This document shows positions 3,881 to 29,870 of a DNA stretch of 37,431 bases, piece after piece. The notes beneath the pieces were generated by a model that was not told the DNA's origin, searched no databases, and saw nothing but the letters and a program-made list of their open reading frames with translations. The stretch comes from Oscillospiraceae bacterium. GTDB taxonomy: Bacteria; Bacillota; Clostridia; Oscillospirales; Oscillospiraceae. Both the position numbers and the translations under genes were made by a program. The stretch is taken from contig CACYLY010000026.1 of assembly GCA_902775355.1 (NCBI GenBank), forward strand, positions 1 to 37,431. Direction: 5' to 3'. Position 1 is the first letter of the stretch; each line of letters begins with the position of its first letter.

Positions 3881-4062
3881 ATGAACAGTGAACGGTGAAC
3901 GGTGAACAGTTATGAGATCACACCTGCGGCGCAAGGGATCACAAGGCTTACTGCTTCGCGGCACATCGCAAGTCTTCACATTTTGCCATGATTTGCTCTC
4001 TGTCTATCGTTTTCTCTTCTCTGTTTACCGTTTTCTCTTCTCTGTTCACTGTTCACTGTTCA
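3881..4062. repeat. Inverted heptamer arrays between regulator and kinase
   Basis: The left end has four TGAACAG/TGAACGG heptamers in a row (3881-3908). The right end has three copies of the complement CTGTTCA (4042-4062). Between them are about 130 bases without a gene, including a 20-base direct repeat beginning CGTTTTCTCTTCTCTGTT near 4010-4045. The last heptamer at 4056-4062 supplies the TGA stop codon of the response regulator. Each array read inwards contains TGA in every unit. Confidence 0.8.
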
Positions 4063-4749
4063 TTTTTCACTGAAGTAGTATCCCACGCCCCATTTGGTGG
4101 CGATGTACTCGGGATGGGCGGGGTCCAGCTCCAGCTTCTCCCGAAGCCGGCGGATGTGCACGTCCACGGTGCGGGTGTCCCCCTGGTACTCGTAGCCCCA
4201 GACCAGGTCCAGCAGGGCCTCCCGGCTGTAGACCCGGCCGGGGTTCTTCATGAGAAACAGCACCAGGTCGAACTCCTTCAGGGTCAGCTCCACGGGCACC
4301 CCGTCCTTCCAGGCGGTGCGCCGCTCCTCGTCCACGGCGATGTGGCCCCGCTGCAGGGTCCTGGACGCGCTCTGCCCCGGCAGGGAGGAAATGCCCGCCC
4401 GGCGCAGCAGGGCCCGGACCCGGGCCTTCAGCACCATGATGTCGAAGGGCTTGGTCACATAGTCGTCCGCCCCGGACTCGAAGCCCATGAGCATGTCCGC
4501 CTTCTCGCTGCGGGCGGTGAGCATGATGATGGGCACGGTGGAAAACTGCCGGATCTCCTGGCAGGCCTCCAGCCCGTCCTTCAGGGGCATCATCAGATCC
4601 AGGATGATCAGATCGTAATTCCCCGTCCGGGCCATGGAGACGGCCATCTCCCCGTCATAGCCCACGTCCACGGTGTAGCCCTCGTTTTCCAGATTGAATT
4701 TGATGCCCTTGACCAGGAGCTTTTCGTCGTCAACTACCAGAATTTTCAT
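4060..4749 (-). CDS. OmpR/PhoB-type response regulator
   Basis: A 229-residue DNA-binding response regulator. The receiver domain has the acidic pair Asp7/Asp8, the phospho-acceptor Asp51 (in LIILDLMMP), Thr78 and Lys100 (YVTKPFD). The C-terminal winged helix runs from about 130 to the end, with the typical ELTLKEFDLVLFLMKNPGRVYSREALLD and RTVDVHIRRLREKLE segments. It is the first gene of the operon with the kinase and peptidase. The region before its start is shared with the divergent carboxypeptidase promoter, so it could act there; no operator was recognised. Its stop codon lies inside a heptamer repeat, so its last codons border an insertion. Confidence 0.95.
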   Translation of the reverse strand: MKILVVDDEKLLVKGIKFNLENEGYTVDVGYDGEMAVSMARTGNYDLIILDLMMPLKDGLEACQEIRQFSTVPIIMLTARSEKADMLMGFESGADDYVTKPFDIMVLKARVRALLRRAGISSLPGQSASRTLQRGHIAVDEERRTAWKDGVPVELTLKEFDLVLFLMKNPGRVYSREALLDLVWGYEYQGDTRTVDVHIRRLREKLELDPAHPEYIATKWGVGYYFSEK

Positions 4750-11084: not shown

Positions 11085-12089
11085 ATGAGCATCCCGCGCA
11101 TCGAACGCGAACAGTTGGAGCATGTATTGATCGGGCCCTACGGCGTGCTCTCCGAGAACAGCCGGGGCCGCCTGCAGCCGGAGCCGGAGTGCGACATCCG
11201 TCCCTGCTTCCAGCGGGACATTGACCGGATCACCCACTCCAAGGCCTTTCGCCGCCTGAAGCACAAGACCCAGGTTTTCCTCCAGCCGGAGGGGGATCAC
11301 TACCGCACCCGCCTGACCCACACCCTGGAGGTCACCCGCCTGGCCCGCACCGTAGCCCGGGCCCTTCGCTTCAACGAGGATCTGGCCGAGGCCATCGCCC
11401 TGGGCCACGACCTGGGCCACACCCCCTTCGGCCACGCCGGGGAGCGGGCCCTGAACAAGATCTACGAGGGCGGCTTCAAGCACTATGAGCAGAGCCTGCG
11501 GGTGGTGGACCTGCTGGAGCGGGACGGGCAAGGCCTGAACCTGTGCTATGAGACCCGCATGGGCATCCTGAACCACACCCACGGCGCGCCGGACGACACC
11601 CGGGAGGCCACCACGGTCCGTCTCTGCGACCGGATCGCCTACATCAACCACGACCTGGACGACTCCATCCGCGCCGGCATCCTCACCGCCGAGGACGTGC
11701 CCCAAAGGATCCGGGAGGCCTGCGGGGAGAGGAACAGCGAGCGCATCAACGCCTTTCTGACGGATCTGATCCAAAACAGCGGCGAGGGCGAGCTGAAAAT
11801 GTCCCCCGCCATGCAGGAGACTTTCCAGTTCTTCCACAGCTTCATGTACTCCGACATCTACACCAATCCCGTTGCCAAGAGCGAGGAGAGCAAGGTGGAG
11901 GGCATCCTCGGCCGCCTCTTCGACTACTATACCGCCCGCCCCGAGGCCCTGCCCGAGGACTTCCAGCCCATCGTGGAGCGGGAAGGTCGGGGCCGCGCCG
12001 CCTGTGACTACATCTCCGGCATGACCGACGGCTATGCCATGGAGAAATACGGCGAGCTGTTCATCCCCTTTGCGTGGTCGGTGAAATAA
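11085..12089 (+). CDS. dgt: dGTP triphosphohydrolase-like HD protein
   Basis: A 334-residue HD-domain phosphohydrolase of the Dgt family, which hydrolyses dNTPs to nucleosides and triphosphate. The family opening is visible (FQRDIDRITHSKAFRRLKHK and RTRLTHTLEV), with the metal ligands His in RLTHT and the His-Asp pair of GHDLGHTPFGHAGE; a further Asp lies in RIAYINHDLDDS. The start at 11085 has GGGAGG upstream. In many Clostridia dgt lies directly before dnaG and rpoD. Here the order is kept but a four-helix-bundle gene between heptamer arrays is inserted. Confidence 0.93.
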   Translation: MSIPRIEREQLEHVLIGPYGVLSENSRGRLQPEPECDIRPCFQRDIDRITHSKAFRRLKHKTQVFLQPEGDHYRTRLTHTLEVTRLARTVARALRFNEDLAEAIALGHDLGHTPFGHAGERALNKIYEGGFKHYEQSLRVVDLLERDGQGLNLCYETRMGILNHTHGAPDDTREATTVRLCDRIAYINHDLDDSIRAGILTAEDVPQRIREACGERNSERINAFLTDLIQNSGEGELKMSPAMQETFQFFHSFMYSDIYTNPVAKSEESKVEGILGRLFDYYTARPEALPEDFQPIVEREGRGRAACDYISGMTDGYAMEKYGELFIPFAWSVK

Positions 12090-12103
12090 AACTCTGTGTA
12101 TAG

Positions 12104-12131
12104 TTCGTAGTGTTTAGTTCGTAGTTCGTAG
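12104..12131. repeat. Left heptamer array of the four-helix-bundle element
   Basis: Four contiguous 7-base units: TTCGTAG, TGTTTAG, TTCGTAG, TTCGTAG. They are the complement of the units in the array at 12516-12574, so the two arrays form an inverted pair around the gene at 12156. The array begins 14 bases after the dgt stop codon. Confidence 0.85.
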
Positions 12132-12155
12132 TAGATCGCTGACCGGAGGATCGTT

Positions 12156-12512
12156 ATGGCGTTTTGCAGTTACCGGGAATTGATTGTCTGGCAAAAAGCG
12201 ATGGATCTTGTCGATGAAGTCTATCTCCTTGTGAAAGAACTTCCCAAAGAAGAACAGTTTGCTTTATCAAATCAGTTGCGCAGGGCCGTTGTTTCCATTC
12301 CCTCAAATATTGCCGAAGGGCAAGGACGAAACACAAGAAAAGACTTTATACAGTTTCTTTCCATTGCACGCGGGTCTGTATTTGAAGTAGAAACGCAACT
12401 TCTGATATGTGTTCGTCAGAATTATATTTCAGAGGCACAGGCACACAAGAGTCTTCATCTTTGTGCAGAAGTTGGACGGATTCTGACAAAAATGACGGCA
12501 AATCCGAAATAG
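12156..12512 (+). CDS. Four-helix bundle protein (23S rRNA IVS / bAvd-like)
   Basis: A 118-residue member of the four-helix bundle family known from ORFs in 23S rRNA intervening sequences and related to the accessory protein of diversity-generating retroelements. Family marks are YRELIVWQKAMDLVDEVY, LSNQLRRAVVSIPSNIAEGQGR and FLSIARGSVFEVETQL. Its molecular role is not firmly known. It has a GGAGG ribosome site. It is clearly more AT-rich than dgt and dnaG, and lies between inverted arrays of a 7-base repeat inside the dgt-dnaG-rpoD group, so it looks inserted. No reverse transcriptase or rRNA gene is nearby. Confidence 0.93.
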   Translation: MAFCSYRELIVWQKAMDLVDEVYLLVKELPKEEQFALSNQLRRAVVSIPSNIAEGQGRNTRKDFIQFLSIARGSVFEVETQLLICVRQNYISEAQAHKSLHLCAEVGRILTKMTANPK

Positions 12513-12515
12513 AAT

Positions 12516-12574
12516 CTACGAACTACGATCTACGAACTTCGAACTACGATCTACGAACTACGAACTACGAACTA
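12516..12574. repeat. Right heptamer array of the four-helix-bundle element
   Basis: Eight units of CTACGAA with variants CTACGAT and CTTCGAA, plus a final CTA, in exact 7-base register over 59 bases. It starts 4 bases after the stop of the four-helix-bundle gene and ends just before the dnaG ribosome site. Confidence 0.9.
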
Positions 12575-12596
12575 GAATCACCGGAGGTGATTCCCT

Positions 12597-14349
12597 ATGC
12601 CCTTTCCTGAAAAGTTCATAGACGAGCTGGTGGAGCGCAACGACATCGTGGACGTGGTTTCCGGCTATGTGCGGCTCTCCAAGCGCAGCGGGGCCAATCA
12701 GTTCGGGCTCTGCCCCTTCCACAGCGAGAAGACCCCCTCCTTCGCCGTGAATCCGGAAAAGCAGATCTACCACTGCTTCGGCTGCGGCAAGGGCGGCAGC
12801 GTCATCAACTTCATCATGGAGATCGAGAACCTGGGCTATCGGGACGCGGTGGCCTTTCTGGCCCGCCGGGCGGGGATGACCATGCCCCAGGAGCAGGACG
12901 ATGCCGAGAGCCGCAAGCGCGCCCGGATGCTGGCTCTGAACAAGGACGCCGCCCGGTTCTTCTACGAGCAACTGTCCAGCCCCGGAGGGAAGCGGGCCGC
13001 GGAATACATGGCCCGGCGCCGCATCTCCCCCGCCACCGCCAAAAACTTCGGCCTGGGCTTCGCGCCGGACACTTGGGACAGTCTGGAGAAGGCCATGCGC
13101 CTTAAGGGCTACTCCGACTTTGAGCTGGCGGACGCGGGCCTGGTGCGCCGGGGCAAGAGCGGCGGCTTTTACGACACCTTCCGGGACCGGCTCATGTTCC
13201 CGGTGATCGACGTGCGGGGCAACGTCATCGGCTTCTCCGGCCGCATCCTGGGGGACGGGGAGCCCAAGTACATGAACAGCCCCGAGACCCTGGTTTTCAA
13301 CAAGAGCCGCAACCTTTTCGCCCTGAATCTGGCGAAAAAATCCAAAAGCGGATATATCATCCTCTCCGAGGGCAATATAGACGTGGTATCCCTCCATCAG
13401 GCTGGTTTCGACTCGGCGGTGGCCTCCCTGGGCACCTCGCTGACGCCGGAGCAGGCCCGGCTCCTCTCCCGCTACACCAGCCAGGTCATCATCGCCTACG
13501 ACAACGACGGGGCGGGGATGAAGGCCTCCCAGCGGGCCATCACGATCCTGGAAAAGCTGGACGTGAAGGTCAAGGTCCTGCAGCTCAGCGGCGCCAAGGA
13601 CCCGGACGAGTTCATCAAGGCCAAGGGGCCCGAGGCCTTCCGCAAGCTGCTGGAGGGCTCGGAGGCCCAGGTGGACTACCGGCTTCGGGGCGTGACGGAG
13701 AAATACGACCTGAGCCAGGACGAGCAGAAGGTGGAATTCCTCAAGGAGGCCTCGGACCTGGTGGCCCGGCTCCCCGGCCCGGTGGAGCGGCAGGTCTACG
13801 CCATGCGGGTGGCAAATCTCGCCGGCGTGCCCAACGACGTGGTCAGCGCCGAGGTGGAGCGCCGCCGCAAGCGCCTGGTGACCAAGGCCGCCCGGGAGGA
13901 GGAGCGGCAGCAGGAGCGGCCCGAGCGGCAGGCCCAGCCCAGCGAAAAGGAGCTGCGCTACGAGGACCCGGTGTCCGCCCGGGCGGAGGAGGGTCTGATC
14001 CGGCTGCTCAGCCTGGACCCGGCCCTGGGCGCCCGGGAGAAGCTGCCGGAGGCCGAGGCCTTCTCCTCCCCGGCCCTGGGCCATATCTACAGCGTGCTGC
14101 TGGAGCGGATCCGGCAGCACGAGAGCGTGAGCAGCGCCAACCTGGGCGAGGCGCTGACCGGGCCGGAGATGAGCCTGCTGGTGCGCATCCAGCAGGCCCC
14201 GGTGAATCTGCAGCAGGGCGAAAAAGCCCTGGAGGACTACATAAAGTGCATCCAAGAGCACCGAGAACAGCGCGAACAGAAAAACAAACCCACAGATCTG
14301 CGGGCCCTTGCCCGGCAGCAAAGAGAAAAAGGAAAGAGGTATGAGGGAA

Positions 14350-14357
<8 letters not shown>
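12597..14357 (+). CDS. dnaG: DNA primase
   Basis: Synthesises RNA primers for replication; 586 residues, normal for the family. The CHC2 zinc-binding domain has Cys39, His42, Cys60 and Cys63 (CPFH...CFGC). The catalytic core and TOPRIM domain follow, with Glu258 in the stretch [10 protein letters not shown] (EGYMD is more usual) and Asp302/Asp304 in AYDNDGAG. The last 140 residues form the helicase-binding domain. The start at 12597 has GGAGGTGA 6 bases upstream. The stop overlaps the rpoD start by 8 bases. The usual upstream promoter region is now occupied by a heptamer array. Confidence 0.97.
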
Positions 14358-15962: not shown

Positions 15963-16034
15963 GCAGAAGGCGCACGCGGCAGGTACAACCGCGTAGGACG
16001 CGATGCCTTCCTCGCGCCGCAGAACGGAGACGAC

Positions 16035-16353
16035 GGAGCGATCAAGGGATCGCTCCCTACGCGGCAGACGGAGACGCGCCCGTAGGGAGGCATCCCCTGA
16101 TGCCTCCGCGGATTATGCGGTCACATTACGACGGAGCGACGAGGGCGTCGCTCCCTACGCGCAAGGCGGAGACGCGCCCGTAGGGAGGCATCCCCTGACG
16201 CCTCCGCGGATTATGCGGTCACATTACGACGGAGCGATCAAGGGATCGCTCCCTACGCGCAAGACGGAGACGCGCCCGTAGGGAGGCATCCCCTGATGCC
16301 TCCGCGGATTATGCGGTCTCATTACGACGGAGCGACGAGGGATCGCTCCCTAC
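16035..16353. repeat. BIME-like array of paired inverted REPs, 98-bp period
   Basis: Minus-oriented REPs (GGAGCGATC stem, ending CTAC) begin at 16035, 16133, 16231 and 16329. Plus-oriented REPs (GTAG, then GGAGGCATC/GATGCCTCC) begin at 16082, 16180 and 16278. All intervals are exactly 98 bases. Linker sequence (GCGGATTATGCGGTCACATT) is also conserved. Stem changes in one unit are matched on both sides: GGAGCGACG pairs with CGTCGCTCC at 16133-16158. Confidence 0.9.
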
Positions 16354-16406
16354 GCGCAAGACGGAGACGCGCAGGACGCTGCGCTCGCGAGCTCCCGCCG
16401 CTGCAG

Positions 16407-28085: not shown

Positions 28086-28568
28086 ATGAACCGATCAAAC
28101 CGCATCGGGAAACACCTGAGACTCGCAAATTACGATTACAGTCAAGCAGGTGCTTACTTTGTAACCTTTTGCGTGAAAGACCGCCTTCCCCTCCTCTCGC
28201 AGGTTTGCCCCAGCGACAATGCTATTGACCCTCCCGTAGTTCGACTGTCATCGTTTGGCTCTCTTACCGAAGAGGCTATTCTGCAGATTCCCGAGCGATA
28301 CAGCGGCACACAGGTAGATGCTTATGTGATCATGCCAAACCATGTGCATCTTCTTGTTTGCCTTCCGTCAGAGAGCGGGCCAAAGCTTGGCAGGATCATC
28401 CAGCATTTGAAGGGATTCGTTACGAAGCAATGCGGGCAAGCCATCTGGCAGGACAAATACTACGATCACGCGGTACGGAACGAAGCGGACTATCGGACCA
28501 AATATCAATACATTCTTGACAATCCCGCAAAATGGGCAGAAGATGAGTATTATTCTTCGCTGAAATAA
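28086..28568 (+). CDS. REP-associated tyrosine transposase (RAYT), copy 1
   Basis: A 160-residue Y1/HUH-type single-strand DNA transposase of the IS200-like REP-associated group. It has ANYDYSQAGAYFVTFCV near the N-terminus, the HUH motif in MPNHVHLL (His86, His88), a helix region GRIIQHLKGFVTKQ, and KYQYILDNPAKWAEDEYY with the likely catalytic Tyr (140 or 142). It has a GGGAGG ribosome site. REPs flank it in inverted orientation with GTAG on the outer sides. It is less GC-rich than its neighbours, consistent with transfer. In known cases RAYTs cut and move REPs at the GTAG; activity here is inferred. Confidence 0.92.
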   Translation: MNRSNRIGKHLRLANYDYSQAGAYFVTFCVKDRLPLLSQVCPSDNAIDPPVVRLSSFGSLTEEAILQIPERYSGTQVDAYVIMPNHVHLLVCLPSESGPKLGRIIQHLKGFVTKQCGQAIWQDKYYDHAVRNEADYRTKYQYILDNPAKWAEDEYYSSLK

Positions 28569-28573
28569 TTTTT

Positions 28574-28692
28574 CGCCGAGCAATGCTCGGCGCTACGGGT
28601 TCGCTGACCTGTGATACACGTCGCCGAGCGATGCTCGGCGCTACGGGTACGCTGGCCTGTGATACACGTCGCCGAGCGATGCTCGGCGCTAC
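28574..28692 (-). repeat. Three REPs in a 48-bp tandem array downstream of the first RAYT
   Basis: 28574-28596, 28622-28644 and 28670-28692, each with arms CGCCGAGC/GCTCGGCG and ending CTAC (minus orientation). The starts are exactly 48 bases apart, with conserved linker sequence (GCTG-CCTGTGATACACGT). Orientation is opposite to the two REPs upstream. Confidence 0.93.
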
Positions 28693-28725
28693 GGAAGGCC
28701 GGGGCGAAATAGAAAGGAGCACCTT

Positions 28726-29238
28726 ATGCTGTTGAATGAATTTGAGACCCGGGACCTGGAGGAGCGGGTCCGGACCGAGCTGCGCTTCCGGCCGGACAGC
28801 CGGGAGCGGGAGCACTCCCTGCTGTGGTGGAAGCGGCCCTTCCGGCTGCCGAAGCCCTGGGCGGTCTACGCCCTGGACACGGTGAATCAGGAGCAGATCG
28901 AGCGGACCAAGGAGGCCGTCAAGGGCGGCCTGCTGGCGGTCACCCGGCCCGGGGAAAAGCTCTATGCCCTGGACTGGAATCACTGCGCCTTTCTCTTTGA
29001 CCCCCGGAAGGACGAGGAACAGCGATCCGAAGAGCAGATCGACCAGAACGGCGAAAAATGGATCGCCGCCTTCCCCTTCTATTTTCCCGACGGGGACTAC
29101 TATTTCTTCCTGGACGAGGACTTCCGCTTCGGCTATCTGGGCCACCCCTGGCGAAAGGAGATCTGGGTCTTCGGCGCGGAGCTGCTGCCGGAGATCGAGA
29201 AGATCGCCCCAAGCCTCGGCTGGCAGAAGCTGCGGTAA
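28726..29238 (+). CDS. DUF2716-like hypothetical protein
   Basis: A 170-residue soluble protein without signal or membrane segments. The segments LYALDWNHCAFLFDP, FPDGDYYFFLDEDFRFGYLGHPWRKEIWVFG and an N-terminal FRPDSRE recall the DUF2716 family; this is from memory and moderate in certainty. Function unknown. AAGGAG lies before the ATG. It sits between the two RAYT/REP units, 34 bases after a REP, and has the GC content of the core genome, so it is more likely a resident gene than cargo. Confidence 0.8.
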   Translation: MLLNEFETRDLEERVRTELRFRPDSREREHSLLWWKRPFRLPKPWAVYALDTVNQEQIERTKEAVKGGLLAVTRPGEKLYALDWNHCAFLFDPRKDEEQRSEEQIDQNGEKWIAAFPFYFPDGDYYFFLDEDFRFGYLGHPWRKEIWVFGAELLPEIEKIAPSLGWQKLR

Positions 29239-29293
29239 ACGCGGGGAATGGGCTGATCGGCTTGCTGTCGATCCGAATGCGGACGGGTAATGC

Positions 29294-29341
29294 GTGGGCC
29301 CCTACGGCCCTGTGCGGCGCCGCTGCCCCGCAGGGGCCCAC
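29294..29341. repeat. Compound palindrome before the second RAYT
   Basis: Arms GTGGGCCCCT (29294-29303) and AGGGGCCCAC (29332-29341). CTAC overlaps the left arm and GCAG the right, as in two facing REP-like units. It fills much of the 149 bases between genes. Confidence 0.6.
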
Positions 29342-29387
29342 CCATCGGTCGTGCGCGGCACCCGATGCAGAACAGGAGTATTTGGCT

Positions 29388-29870
29388 ATGCGTTTCTCCC
29401 CTTTTCCAACGAGAAAACCACATCGACTGGATGACTATGATTATAGCACGCCTGGTGCTTATTTTGTCACGATTTGTACGAAAGAGCGTCGGCCTGTTCT
29501 CTCGCACATCGCCGTAGGGACGACCATTGGTCGTCCGCCGGAAGTTCAGCTCTCCCCGCTGGGTCATGTCGTGGAAGACGCTATTCTTCAGATCCCTGTG
29601 AGATATGAAGGAACCGTGCTCGATCAATATGTTGTTATGCCCAACCATGTGCACCTTCTGCTGCAAATTACCTCTCCCGGCGGGCCGAAGCTGGGTCAAA
29701 TTATCCAGCAGCTGAAGGGGCATGTCACAAAGCAATGGGGCAAACCGGTTTGGCAAGAAAAATTTTACGATCACGTAATCCGTGACGAGAGTGACTTCCT
29801 CATCAAATATCAGTATATTTCCAACAACCCAGCAAAATGGGCCGAGGACGAATACTTTTCGGAATCTTAG
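29388..29870 (+). CDS. REP-associated tyrosine transposase (RAYT), copy 2
   Basis: A second 160-residue RAYT, homologous over its length to the copy at 28086 but well diverged. It has YDYSTPGAYFVTICTKERRPVLS, the HUH motif MPNHVHLLL (His87, His89), GQIIQQLKGHVTKQW and KYQYISNNPAKWAEDEYF with Tyr141/143. AGGAG lies 9 bases before the ATG. Codons 43-50 (VGTTIGRP) are formed by a complete GTAG-headed palindrome. A REP with another stem follows the stop codon in minus orientation. The upstream open frame to 29058 is not used. Confidence 0.92.
   Translation: MRFSPFPTRKPHRLDDYDYSTPGAYFVTICTKERRPVLSHIAVGTTIGRPPEVQLSPLGHVVEDAILQIPVRYEGTVLDQYVVMPNHVHLLLQITSPGGPKLGQIIQQLKGHVTKQWGKPVWQEKFYDHVIRDESDFLIKYQYISNNPAKWAEDEYFSES
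29514..29536 (+). repeat. REP palindrome inside the second RAYT gene
   Basis: GTAG, then 9-bp arms GGACGACCA/TGGTCGTCC with a 1-base loop, total 23 bases as for the REPs around it. It is read through in frame. Confidence 0.85.

Follow-up and report, generated by a model that had tools for sequence, protein, structure and literature searches.

The window, that is, the whole analyzed stretch of 37,431 nucleotides from an Oscillospiraceae genome, carries a small gene framed by two arrays of tandem heptamers between the genes for Dgt and DnaG (Table 1). The left, AG-type array consists of four in-register units from position 12104, of which three read TTCGTAG exactly and one (TGTTTAG, 12111-12117) is degenerate. 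The right, CT-type array comprises eight units at 12516-12571, identical to CTACGAA in five cases and altered at a single base in three, followed by a partial unit to 12574. A preliminary description of this locus had reported four TTCGTAG and eight CTACGAA copies in strict 7-base register around an AT-richer gene placed within dgt-dnaG-rpoD. The register and the copy numbers were confirmed, with the imperfections just listed; the GC content is 0.42 in the gene against 0.63 in the window; and the placement was borne out by family matches for dgt and dnaG and by the sigma-70 domains of rpoD. The palindrome that marks the outer boundary of the element on the dnaG side is predicted to form a hairpin covering the dnaG Shine-Dalgarno sequence.

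Table 1. Positions of the features discussed in the window
Feature	Position	Strand	Basis
Second, gene-less inverted pair: AG-type array at 3882-3907 (AGTGAAC) and CT-type array at about 4034-4072 (GTTCACT)	3882-4072	.	TRF and period scoring
dgt	11085-12089		family match
Left (AG-type) heptamer array, unit TTCGTAG	12101-12132	+	TRF score 43
Shine-Dalgarno-like GGAGG of the four-helix gene	12145-12149	+	sequence reading
Four-helix-bundle gene, PF05635/TIGR02436, 118 aa	12156-12512	+	profile matches
Right (CT-type) heptamer array, unit CTACGAA, complement of the left unit	12516-12574	+	TRF score 97
Palindrome AATCACC-GGA-GGTGATT directly 3' of the right array, outer element boundary	12576-12592	+	sequence and folding
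dnaG	12597-14357		family match
REP-associated tyrosine transposase-like gene (first)	28086-28568		NF047646, E = 1e-20, below curated cut-off
REP-associated tyrosine transposase-like gene (second)	29058-29870		NF047646, E = 7e-19, below curated cut-off; TnpArep structure 4er8, E = 9e-6

The gene between the arrays matched PF05635 (E = 6e-42) and the TIGR02436 four helix bundle family (E = 2e-39). The preliminary description had assigned it to the IVS/bAvd family; its bAvd score of 38.2 bits (E = 2e-9) lies just under the 40-bit cut-off. The protein also matched the PHROG Avd family (E = 4e-9) and scored 36.3 bits against DivGenRetAVD (cut-off, 80); the Avd proteins of diversity-generating retroelements are thus sequence relatives of the window protein, which nevertheless does not reach the curated cut-offs for Avd. 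The partner of Avd is a reverse transcriptase, and unlike a diversity-generating retroelement, the window has no reverse transcriptase among the 33 ORFs scanned with Pfam (69 ORFs of at least 150 aa are present in the window, many of them overlapping). The closest solved chains are 2gsc (XCC0516, E = 7e-22), which, from the locus name, is presumably the Xanthomonas campestris protein, and 2rld. A PADLOC search found no defense system match for the element.

No transposase family matched within the element, in which the PF05635 gene is the sole gene identified between the arrays, and this sets the element apart from insertion sequences and MITEs. The statement in the preliminary description that no transposase is present is therefore correct for the element itself and incorrect for the window, where two REP-associated tyrosine transposase-like genes lie about 16 kb away. 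These two genes look like an ordinary RAYT-REP case; the first is flanked by palindromic repeats of the type CGCCGAGC..GCTCGGCG with CCGTAG/CTACGG ends. Their presence leaves room for an explanation in which the heptamer arrays are mobilized in trans by a host-encoded REP-associated tyrosine transposase, with the four-helix gene as mere cargo. The palindromes around the first gene differ from the heptamer arrays, and we regard such an origin as highly improbable.

Arrays were scored at periods 5 to 10 with a main threshold of 13, which is stricter than TRF. At this threshold, the window contains three period-7 arrays, namely, the right array of the four-helix gene and both halves of the gene-less pair, and the left array of the gene, with a score of 11, is weak. 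Other tandem repeats in the window are a 98-bp unit in 3.5 copies (16030-16372) and a 48-bp unit in 2.5 copies (28573-28694).

A search of 99 related genomes identified 108 PF05635 hits in 49 genomes, and 90 of these loci were examined, the 18 left out being mostly the weakest. A period-7 array scoring at least 13 was found within 150 bp on the left of 29 and on the right of 20 of the 90 loci, compared with 0 of 80 and 0 of 86 for segments 700-850 bp away. With a looser score of 9 over the same distance, at least one period-7 array was detected at 45 of the 90 loci, with arrays on both sides at 27, against 0 of 76 control segments; the other 45 loci had no array. At 26 of the 27 two-sided loci, the right unit departs from the complement of the left unit by no more than one base; at the remaining one the difference is larger. 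We extended the analysis to the best 80 of 527 relatives from a scan of genome contigs, which left 76 loci after removal of 4 shared with the first set; several of these are close kin of one another, so the 76 are not all independent. At least one array was present at 66 of the 76 loci and both arrays at 46, complementary within one base in 40 cases, whereas the controls yielded 3 of 65 with at least one array and 0 of 65 with both; among all 80 loci, duplicates included, 6 of the 49 with two arrays differ between sides by more than one base. Because the ordinary control segments are mostly coding, an additional control used non-coding stretches at a distance of over 300 bp from the gene, sought at 159 loci, and 3 of 35 such segments contained an array. 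Other periods (4-6, 8-13, and 15; the multiple 14 excepted) were represented by 0-1 loci per side in both sets.

The wider set is composed mostly of Clostridia, Selenomonadales, and Bacteroidota, and arrays were also present at one locus each from Chloroflexi, Thermoguttaceae, Kiritimatiellae, Omnitrophus, and a betaproteobacterium; a Treponema locus and a Syntrophobacterales locus are among those lacking arrays. From 31 plasmid records with a match, a sample of 13 was read, every one of them cyanobacterial, with period-7 arrays on both sides in 10, on one side in 2, and on neither in 1; at one of the ten (L346), the arrays are in direct orientation as judged by eye. Among 24 loci from viral contigs, some of them duplicates, 11 have both arrays, 8 have one, and 5 have none. 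The bracketing layout is real and general beyond the window gene, and the inverted heptamer arrays that the preliminary description proposed to look for around this gene family are strongly enriched there.

Two further observations concern the family. On three cyanobacterial plasmids (L335, L346, and L339), the four-helix gene is embedded amid CRISPR-associated genes, in the order cas6-gene-cas4 twice and cas10-gene-cmr3 once. At loci L114, L110, and L122, four-helix proteins from the genus of the window (genomes G025 and G049) share 91-93% identity with that of G074, which belongs to a different family; this may point to horizontal transfer or to contamination.

The arrays obey a common grammar. 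Left and right units agree in sequence far more closely than shuffled partners, with a mean rotation distance of 0.37 against 2.82 for the 27 two-sided loci of the relatives (lowest of 2,000 shuffles, 2.0) and of 0.78 against 2.87 for the 49 of the 80 wider-set loci, duplicates included (lowest of 2,000, 2.43). Read on the strand of the right array, 143 of 160 unit consensus sequences contain CT (49% expected from composition) and 99 contain ACT (19% expected). At gene loci, AG-type units stand on the left and CT-type units on the right, with three exceptions in orientation (L094, L221, and L346). The same polarity was found away from the genes: among adjacent arrays of opposite type no more than 400 bp apart (78 loci from the home genome, G000, and from G006 and G036), the order AG to CT occurred 12 times and CT to AG never, and 8 more neighbors were of like type. 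Counts of ACT in four copies across 22 genomes (19 above the control and 3 below) were set aside, the control being contaminated by TCA-containing arrays.

The arrays are also predicted to pair. The left-right RNA duplex of the window arrays has a predicted energy of -40.6 kcal/mol, and across the 27 loci the predicted pairing averages -35.7 kcal/mol with the locus' own partner compared with -11.6 kcal/mol with foreign ones, the own partner beating the median foreign partner in all 27. The predicted RNA fold of the complete window element (-154.3 kcal/mol, z = -4.3) pairs 28 of 32 left-array bases with the right array. A separate proposal, that single arrays carry terminator hairpins on their inner side, was rejected: the 70-bp folding energy inside versus outside was lower in 47 of 94 arrays (p = 0.33). 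The palindrome on the dnaG side occurs in genome G044 in a compensated version (AACACC..GGTGTT), and the hairpin over the dnaG Shine-Dalgarno sequence may therefore be kept by selection.

The dgt-dnaG junction exists in different states within the genus. Among 58 genomes with a dnaG match, 30 loci were read and categorized by eye. Eight carry the four-helix gene upstream of dnaG (G000, G006, G043, G036, G049, G044, G017, and G019), with differing heptamers, and G032 is, by its coordinates, a ninth gene-bearing locus. Three have a gene-less inverted pair (G021, G030, and G059), one has a CT-type array alone (G026), and 18 have no visible array; in ten of the latter, dnaG starts 9 to 60 bp past the upstream reading frame. 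Short array-less junctions thus exist, but their divergence is too great for a target-site duplication to be defined. The gene is thus not conserved between dgt and dnaG, as anticipated for an insertion into a gene order described as usually continuous in Clostridia.

The gene-less pairs share a core with the hairpin GGTGTCCGCTNCGCGGAC, which occurs 57 times in 15 of the 61 genus genomes. A script applied to 30 such loci found arrays on both sides at 13, on one side at 13, and on neither at 4, and the two arrays are complementary within one base at 10 of the 13 two-sided loci. The hairpin is also located between the gene and the right array in two full elements among 90 gene loci, exactly in L061 and loosely in L050, so the miniatures look as if they had arisen by deletion from full elements of this type; the hairpin is absent from the element of the window itself.

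In the home genome (2.86 Mb in 92 contigs; completeness, 87.5%), the window gene is the only PF05635 match, and there are 94 occurrences of CTACGAACTACGAA with at most one mismatch, compared with none for the reversed control. Grouped by eye, the 94 occurrences form about 37 sites, the window's own included. The sites inspected are intergenic, and many immediately follow a stop codon or adjoin a terminator, as assessed by eye with no control. Exact CTACGAA in three copies is found in 2 of the 61 genus genomes, the home genome (28 matches) and G006 (31), both of which have a CTACGAA-flanked four-helix gene. To define the subfamily of the window gene, we used a score above 125 bits, which selects 10 of the 61 genomes. 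The relaxed pattern CTANNNA in three copies occurs 29 to 84 times in 9 of these 10 (just 5 in G044), whereas the other 51 genomes comprise G046 with 72 matches, G055 with 18, G026 with 10, six with 1 to 6, and 42 with none; the reversed controls gave 0 to 2. At least 29 occurrences are accordingly present in 9 of the 10 subfamily genomes versus 1 of the 51 others. Two of the CTANNNA-rich genomes, G046 (75% complete) and G026, have no PF05635 hit, and G055 has a different type of the gene.

A second unit gave a comparable picture: ACTCCAM in three copies was counted 33 times in G037, 34 in G060, and 9 in G059, the three genomes with ACTCCAN-flanked genes, and elsewhere 13 times in G057, once each in three genomes, and in none of the other 54. 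The third unit, ATTCCGA, failed to track its gene type. Its carriers G023, G030, and G004 have 3 (in the element itself only), 1, and 0 matches to three copies, and matches beyond the carriers were found in G006 (21), G049 (9), G000 (5), G019 (4), and G036 (4); the exact pattern is strict enough that the arrays of G004 itself do not meet it. In two of three tests in trans, then, a species-specific unit is common to the gene flanks and the dispersed sites. With the gene loci excluded, the majority unit among the sites listed is CGA at 22 of 31 in G006 (other units at 9) and NGC at 24 of 28 in G036 (other units at 4), and no listed site in either genome has, by majority, the unit type of the other; these majorities match the arrays of the respective genes, CTACGAA in G006 and CTACGCA and CTAAGCA in G036. 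Protein distance and unit distance are correlated (Mantel rho = 0.44, n = 41, 0 of 2,000 permutations), which may be mere co-inheritance given that gene and arrays are physically linked.

Comparison of closely related genomes showed that arrays change length by whole units. Eleven of 39 loci of the home genome match loci of G006, some on one side only. Six array loci were aligned between the two genomes: one shows a 21-bp difference in array length; another, where the left flank is unaligned, shows a 14-bp difference; two have point changes only; and two are without a clear outcome. At the window element, 84 bp separate the stop codon of the gene from dnaG in the home genome, compared with 63 bp in G006, once more a difference of 21 bp. 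Such whole-heptamer differences between sister genomes are what one would expect if the arrays simply grew by replication slippage and spread by recombination, with recombination between arrays also carrying the gene, as a passenger, from one to another, and the arrays of G046 and G026, where no gene was detected, and the failed ATTCCGA test speak for the same explanation. Slippage alone, however, predicts neither a period of 7 nor complementary matching, and the enrichment is limited to period 7, the polarity is one-sided, and the bracketing is specific to the PF05635 family (166 loci versus controls). This passive origin of the layout therefore appears distinctly unlikely.

The four-helix protein itself is under purifying selection, with dN/dS values of 0.16 (G000-G006) and 0.09 (G032-G017); for three further pairs, dS was saturated. 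The protein has diverged more than its neighbors: among G000, G043, and G036, identities are 0.68-0.72 for the four-helix protein, 0.89-0.91 for Dgt, and 0.89-0.93 for DnaG. As a check on simple vertical inheritance of the gene at dgt-dnaG, identity of the four-helix protein was compared with that of DnaG (rho = 0.29, 303 of 5,000 permutations as high) and with that of Dgt (rho = 0.50, 254 of 5,000); the values would suit either fast evolution or repeated replacement. When whole-element copies with unrelated flanks were sought, the best pairs either shared sequence past the arrays or stopped short of them; these pairs lack array-bounded ends and thus do not cleanly prove that an element moved recently. 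Beside one array pair lies a dispersed intergenic repeat, about 155 bp long (L348:15985-16153), with some thirty matches in G006. It was considered as an array-bracketed unit and rejected, the eight copies seen being situated between terminator-like hairpin arms, with an array near one of them (L360).

A selected, rapidly diverging protein encoded next to intergenic arrays that often adjoin stop codons or terminators (the by-eye assessment given above), and next to a hairpin over the dnaG ribosome site, would also suit a regulator, in which a nucleic-acid-binding four-helix protein recognizes the arrays as sites on its own mRNA and on many transcripts, the two co-evolving and the arrays dispersing by slippage. 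Against scattered regulatory sites, complementary pairs bracket the genes and the gene-less pairs possess the inner terminal hairpin of full elements, as expected of an element, and the dgt-dnaG junction is full, miniature, or array-less depending on the species. We consider a regulatory role of this kind unlikely, if less so than passive growth. The enrichment of arrays around the family and the patchy presence of the gene at dgt-dnaG make a mobile or repeat-spreading unit, as the preliminary description suggested, well supported. Its further suggestion, of a directing role for the four-helix protein or the arrays in integration or in the growth of arrays, did not gain the same standing: the association in trans is a correlation, one of the three trans tests failed, and no catalytic part was identified.

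The element resembles several known systems in part. The intervening sequence (IVS) in the 23S rRNA of Coxiella burnetii has an S23p gene in the loop of a stem of 28-bp terminal inverted repeats, carries, on the 5' side of the gene, two to three tandem heptamers whose number varies among strains, and has been termed selfish, in a report that also mentions the S23p of X. campestris (PMC4990558). The window element shares with this arrangement a protein of the PF05635/S23p type and terminal inverted repeats with the gene in the loop, the stem being predicted in the window. By name and fold, we take the S23p or IVP protein of the IVS to be PF05635. Both ends of the window element, in contrast, are heptamer arrays, its heptamer is dispersed through the genome, and miniatures exist. 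Membership in the 23S IVS family was rejected for lack of rRNA: the element is positioned between dgt and dnaG, no Rfam match was found in the window, and no rRNA is present at the 80 wider-set loci.

REPIN-RAYT systems consist of one gene and a repeat dispersed as hairpin-forming inverted doublets and as singlets (PMC3116915). The present system is similar in that the gene is bracketed by a genome-dispersed repeat (the ATTCCGA unit excepted) and the heptamer arrays occur as hairpin-capable inverted doublets and as singlets; it differs in having a 118-aa PF05635 four-helix protein rather than a tyrosine transposase and a tandem heptamer array rather than a single palindrome. Dispersed intergenic heptamer arrays have been described in Xanthomonas (GGGAATC) and Nostoc (GGGGAYT), and two convergent arrays lie near each other in 70 and 75 cases in Xanthomonas, with few paired repeats in Nostoc (PMC4692102); as to a cognate gene, the terms "XCC0516" and "four helix" have no occurrence in the main text of that article. 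TAACTGA repeats of Beggiatoaceae and Microcystis are abundant intergenic tandem heptamers with possible translational roles, in 169 direct-repeat sets and one indirect set (PMC4679880), and "four helix," "S23," "IVS," and "intervening" are not among the terms of the main text of this report. All three heptamers fit AYT+NNNN on one strand (PMC4692102, PMC4679880). The PF05635 genes on the cyanobacterial plasmids carry heptamers other than these three.

The reading that we favor, with modest confidence, is that the locus is an IVS-like hairpin element outside rRNA, with a REPIN-RAYT-like organization in which an Avd-like four-helix protein takes the place of the transposase and acts as the trans-acting partner of the arrays. 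In such an element, positions 12101-12574 would form one compact unit made of the AG-type array, the gene with its own ribosome site, and the complementary CT-type array, the arrays being the element ends. As RNA or as extruded single-stranded DNA, the arrays could anneal to each other, forming a long stem whose loop contains the gene. The four-helix protein, which is related to Avd, would be the trans-acting partner of the element and most likely binds the heptamer stem; from the combination of REPIN-RAYT-like behavior in the genome with an Avd-like protein, we infer that it recognizes such stems and hands them to a host enzyme. It would thereby help host enzymes to copy or extend heptamers, both where its gene lies and at many positions between other genes; the copying and the enzyme responsible for it are conjectural. 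The outcome would be gene-less miniature pairs and single arrays, with one unit kept dominant within a genome and changing between species.

A broader generalization is more doubtful, although we would not call it far-fetched. PF05635 proteins may be dedicated partners of a phylum-spanning class of transposase-less elements with inverted heptamer-array ends, often of the form AYT+NNNN, that are the source of the cyanobacterial, Xanthomonas, and Beggiatoaceae heptamers; the proteins would rewrite the arrays in concert, giving each species its own heptamer, and the 23S rRNA IVS would be a special case that landed in rRNA. A prediction from this scenario is that the PF05635 genes of Xanthomonas, Nostoc, and Beggiatoa lie between the known heptamer units of these bacteria.

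PF05635 is a widespread family named after its location in 23S rRNA, for which we know of no established function. Among the literature matches listed, preprints being outside the scope, the Coxiella IVS paper (PMC4990558) alone joins a PF05635-type family with heptamer arrays. For conserved short satellites, "a possible transposition mechanism" has been suggested (PMC6749651). If the four-helix protein drives heptamer copying, DNA would here be spread by elements that encode no known recombinase, and these elements would be a candidate for the setting in which the Avd proteins of retroelements evolved. Bacterial heptamer repeats, long described with no mechanism, gain a testable gene, and the PF05635 protein gains a testable substrate.
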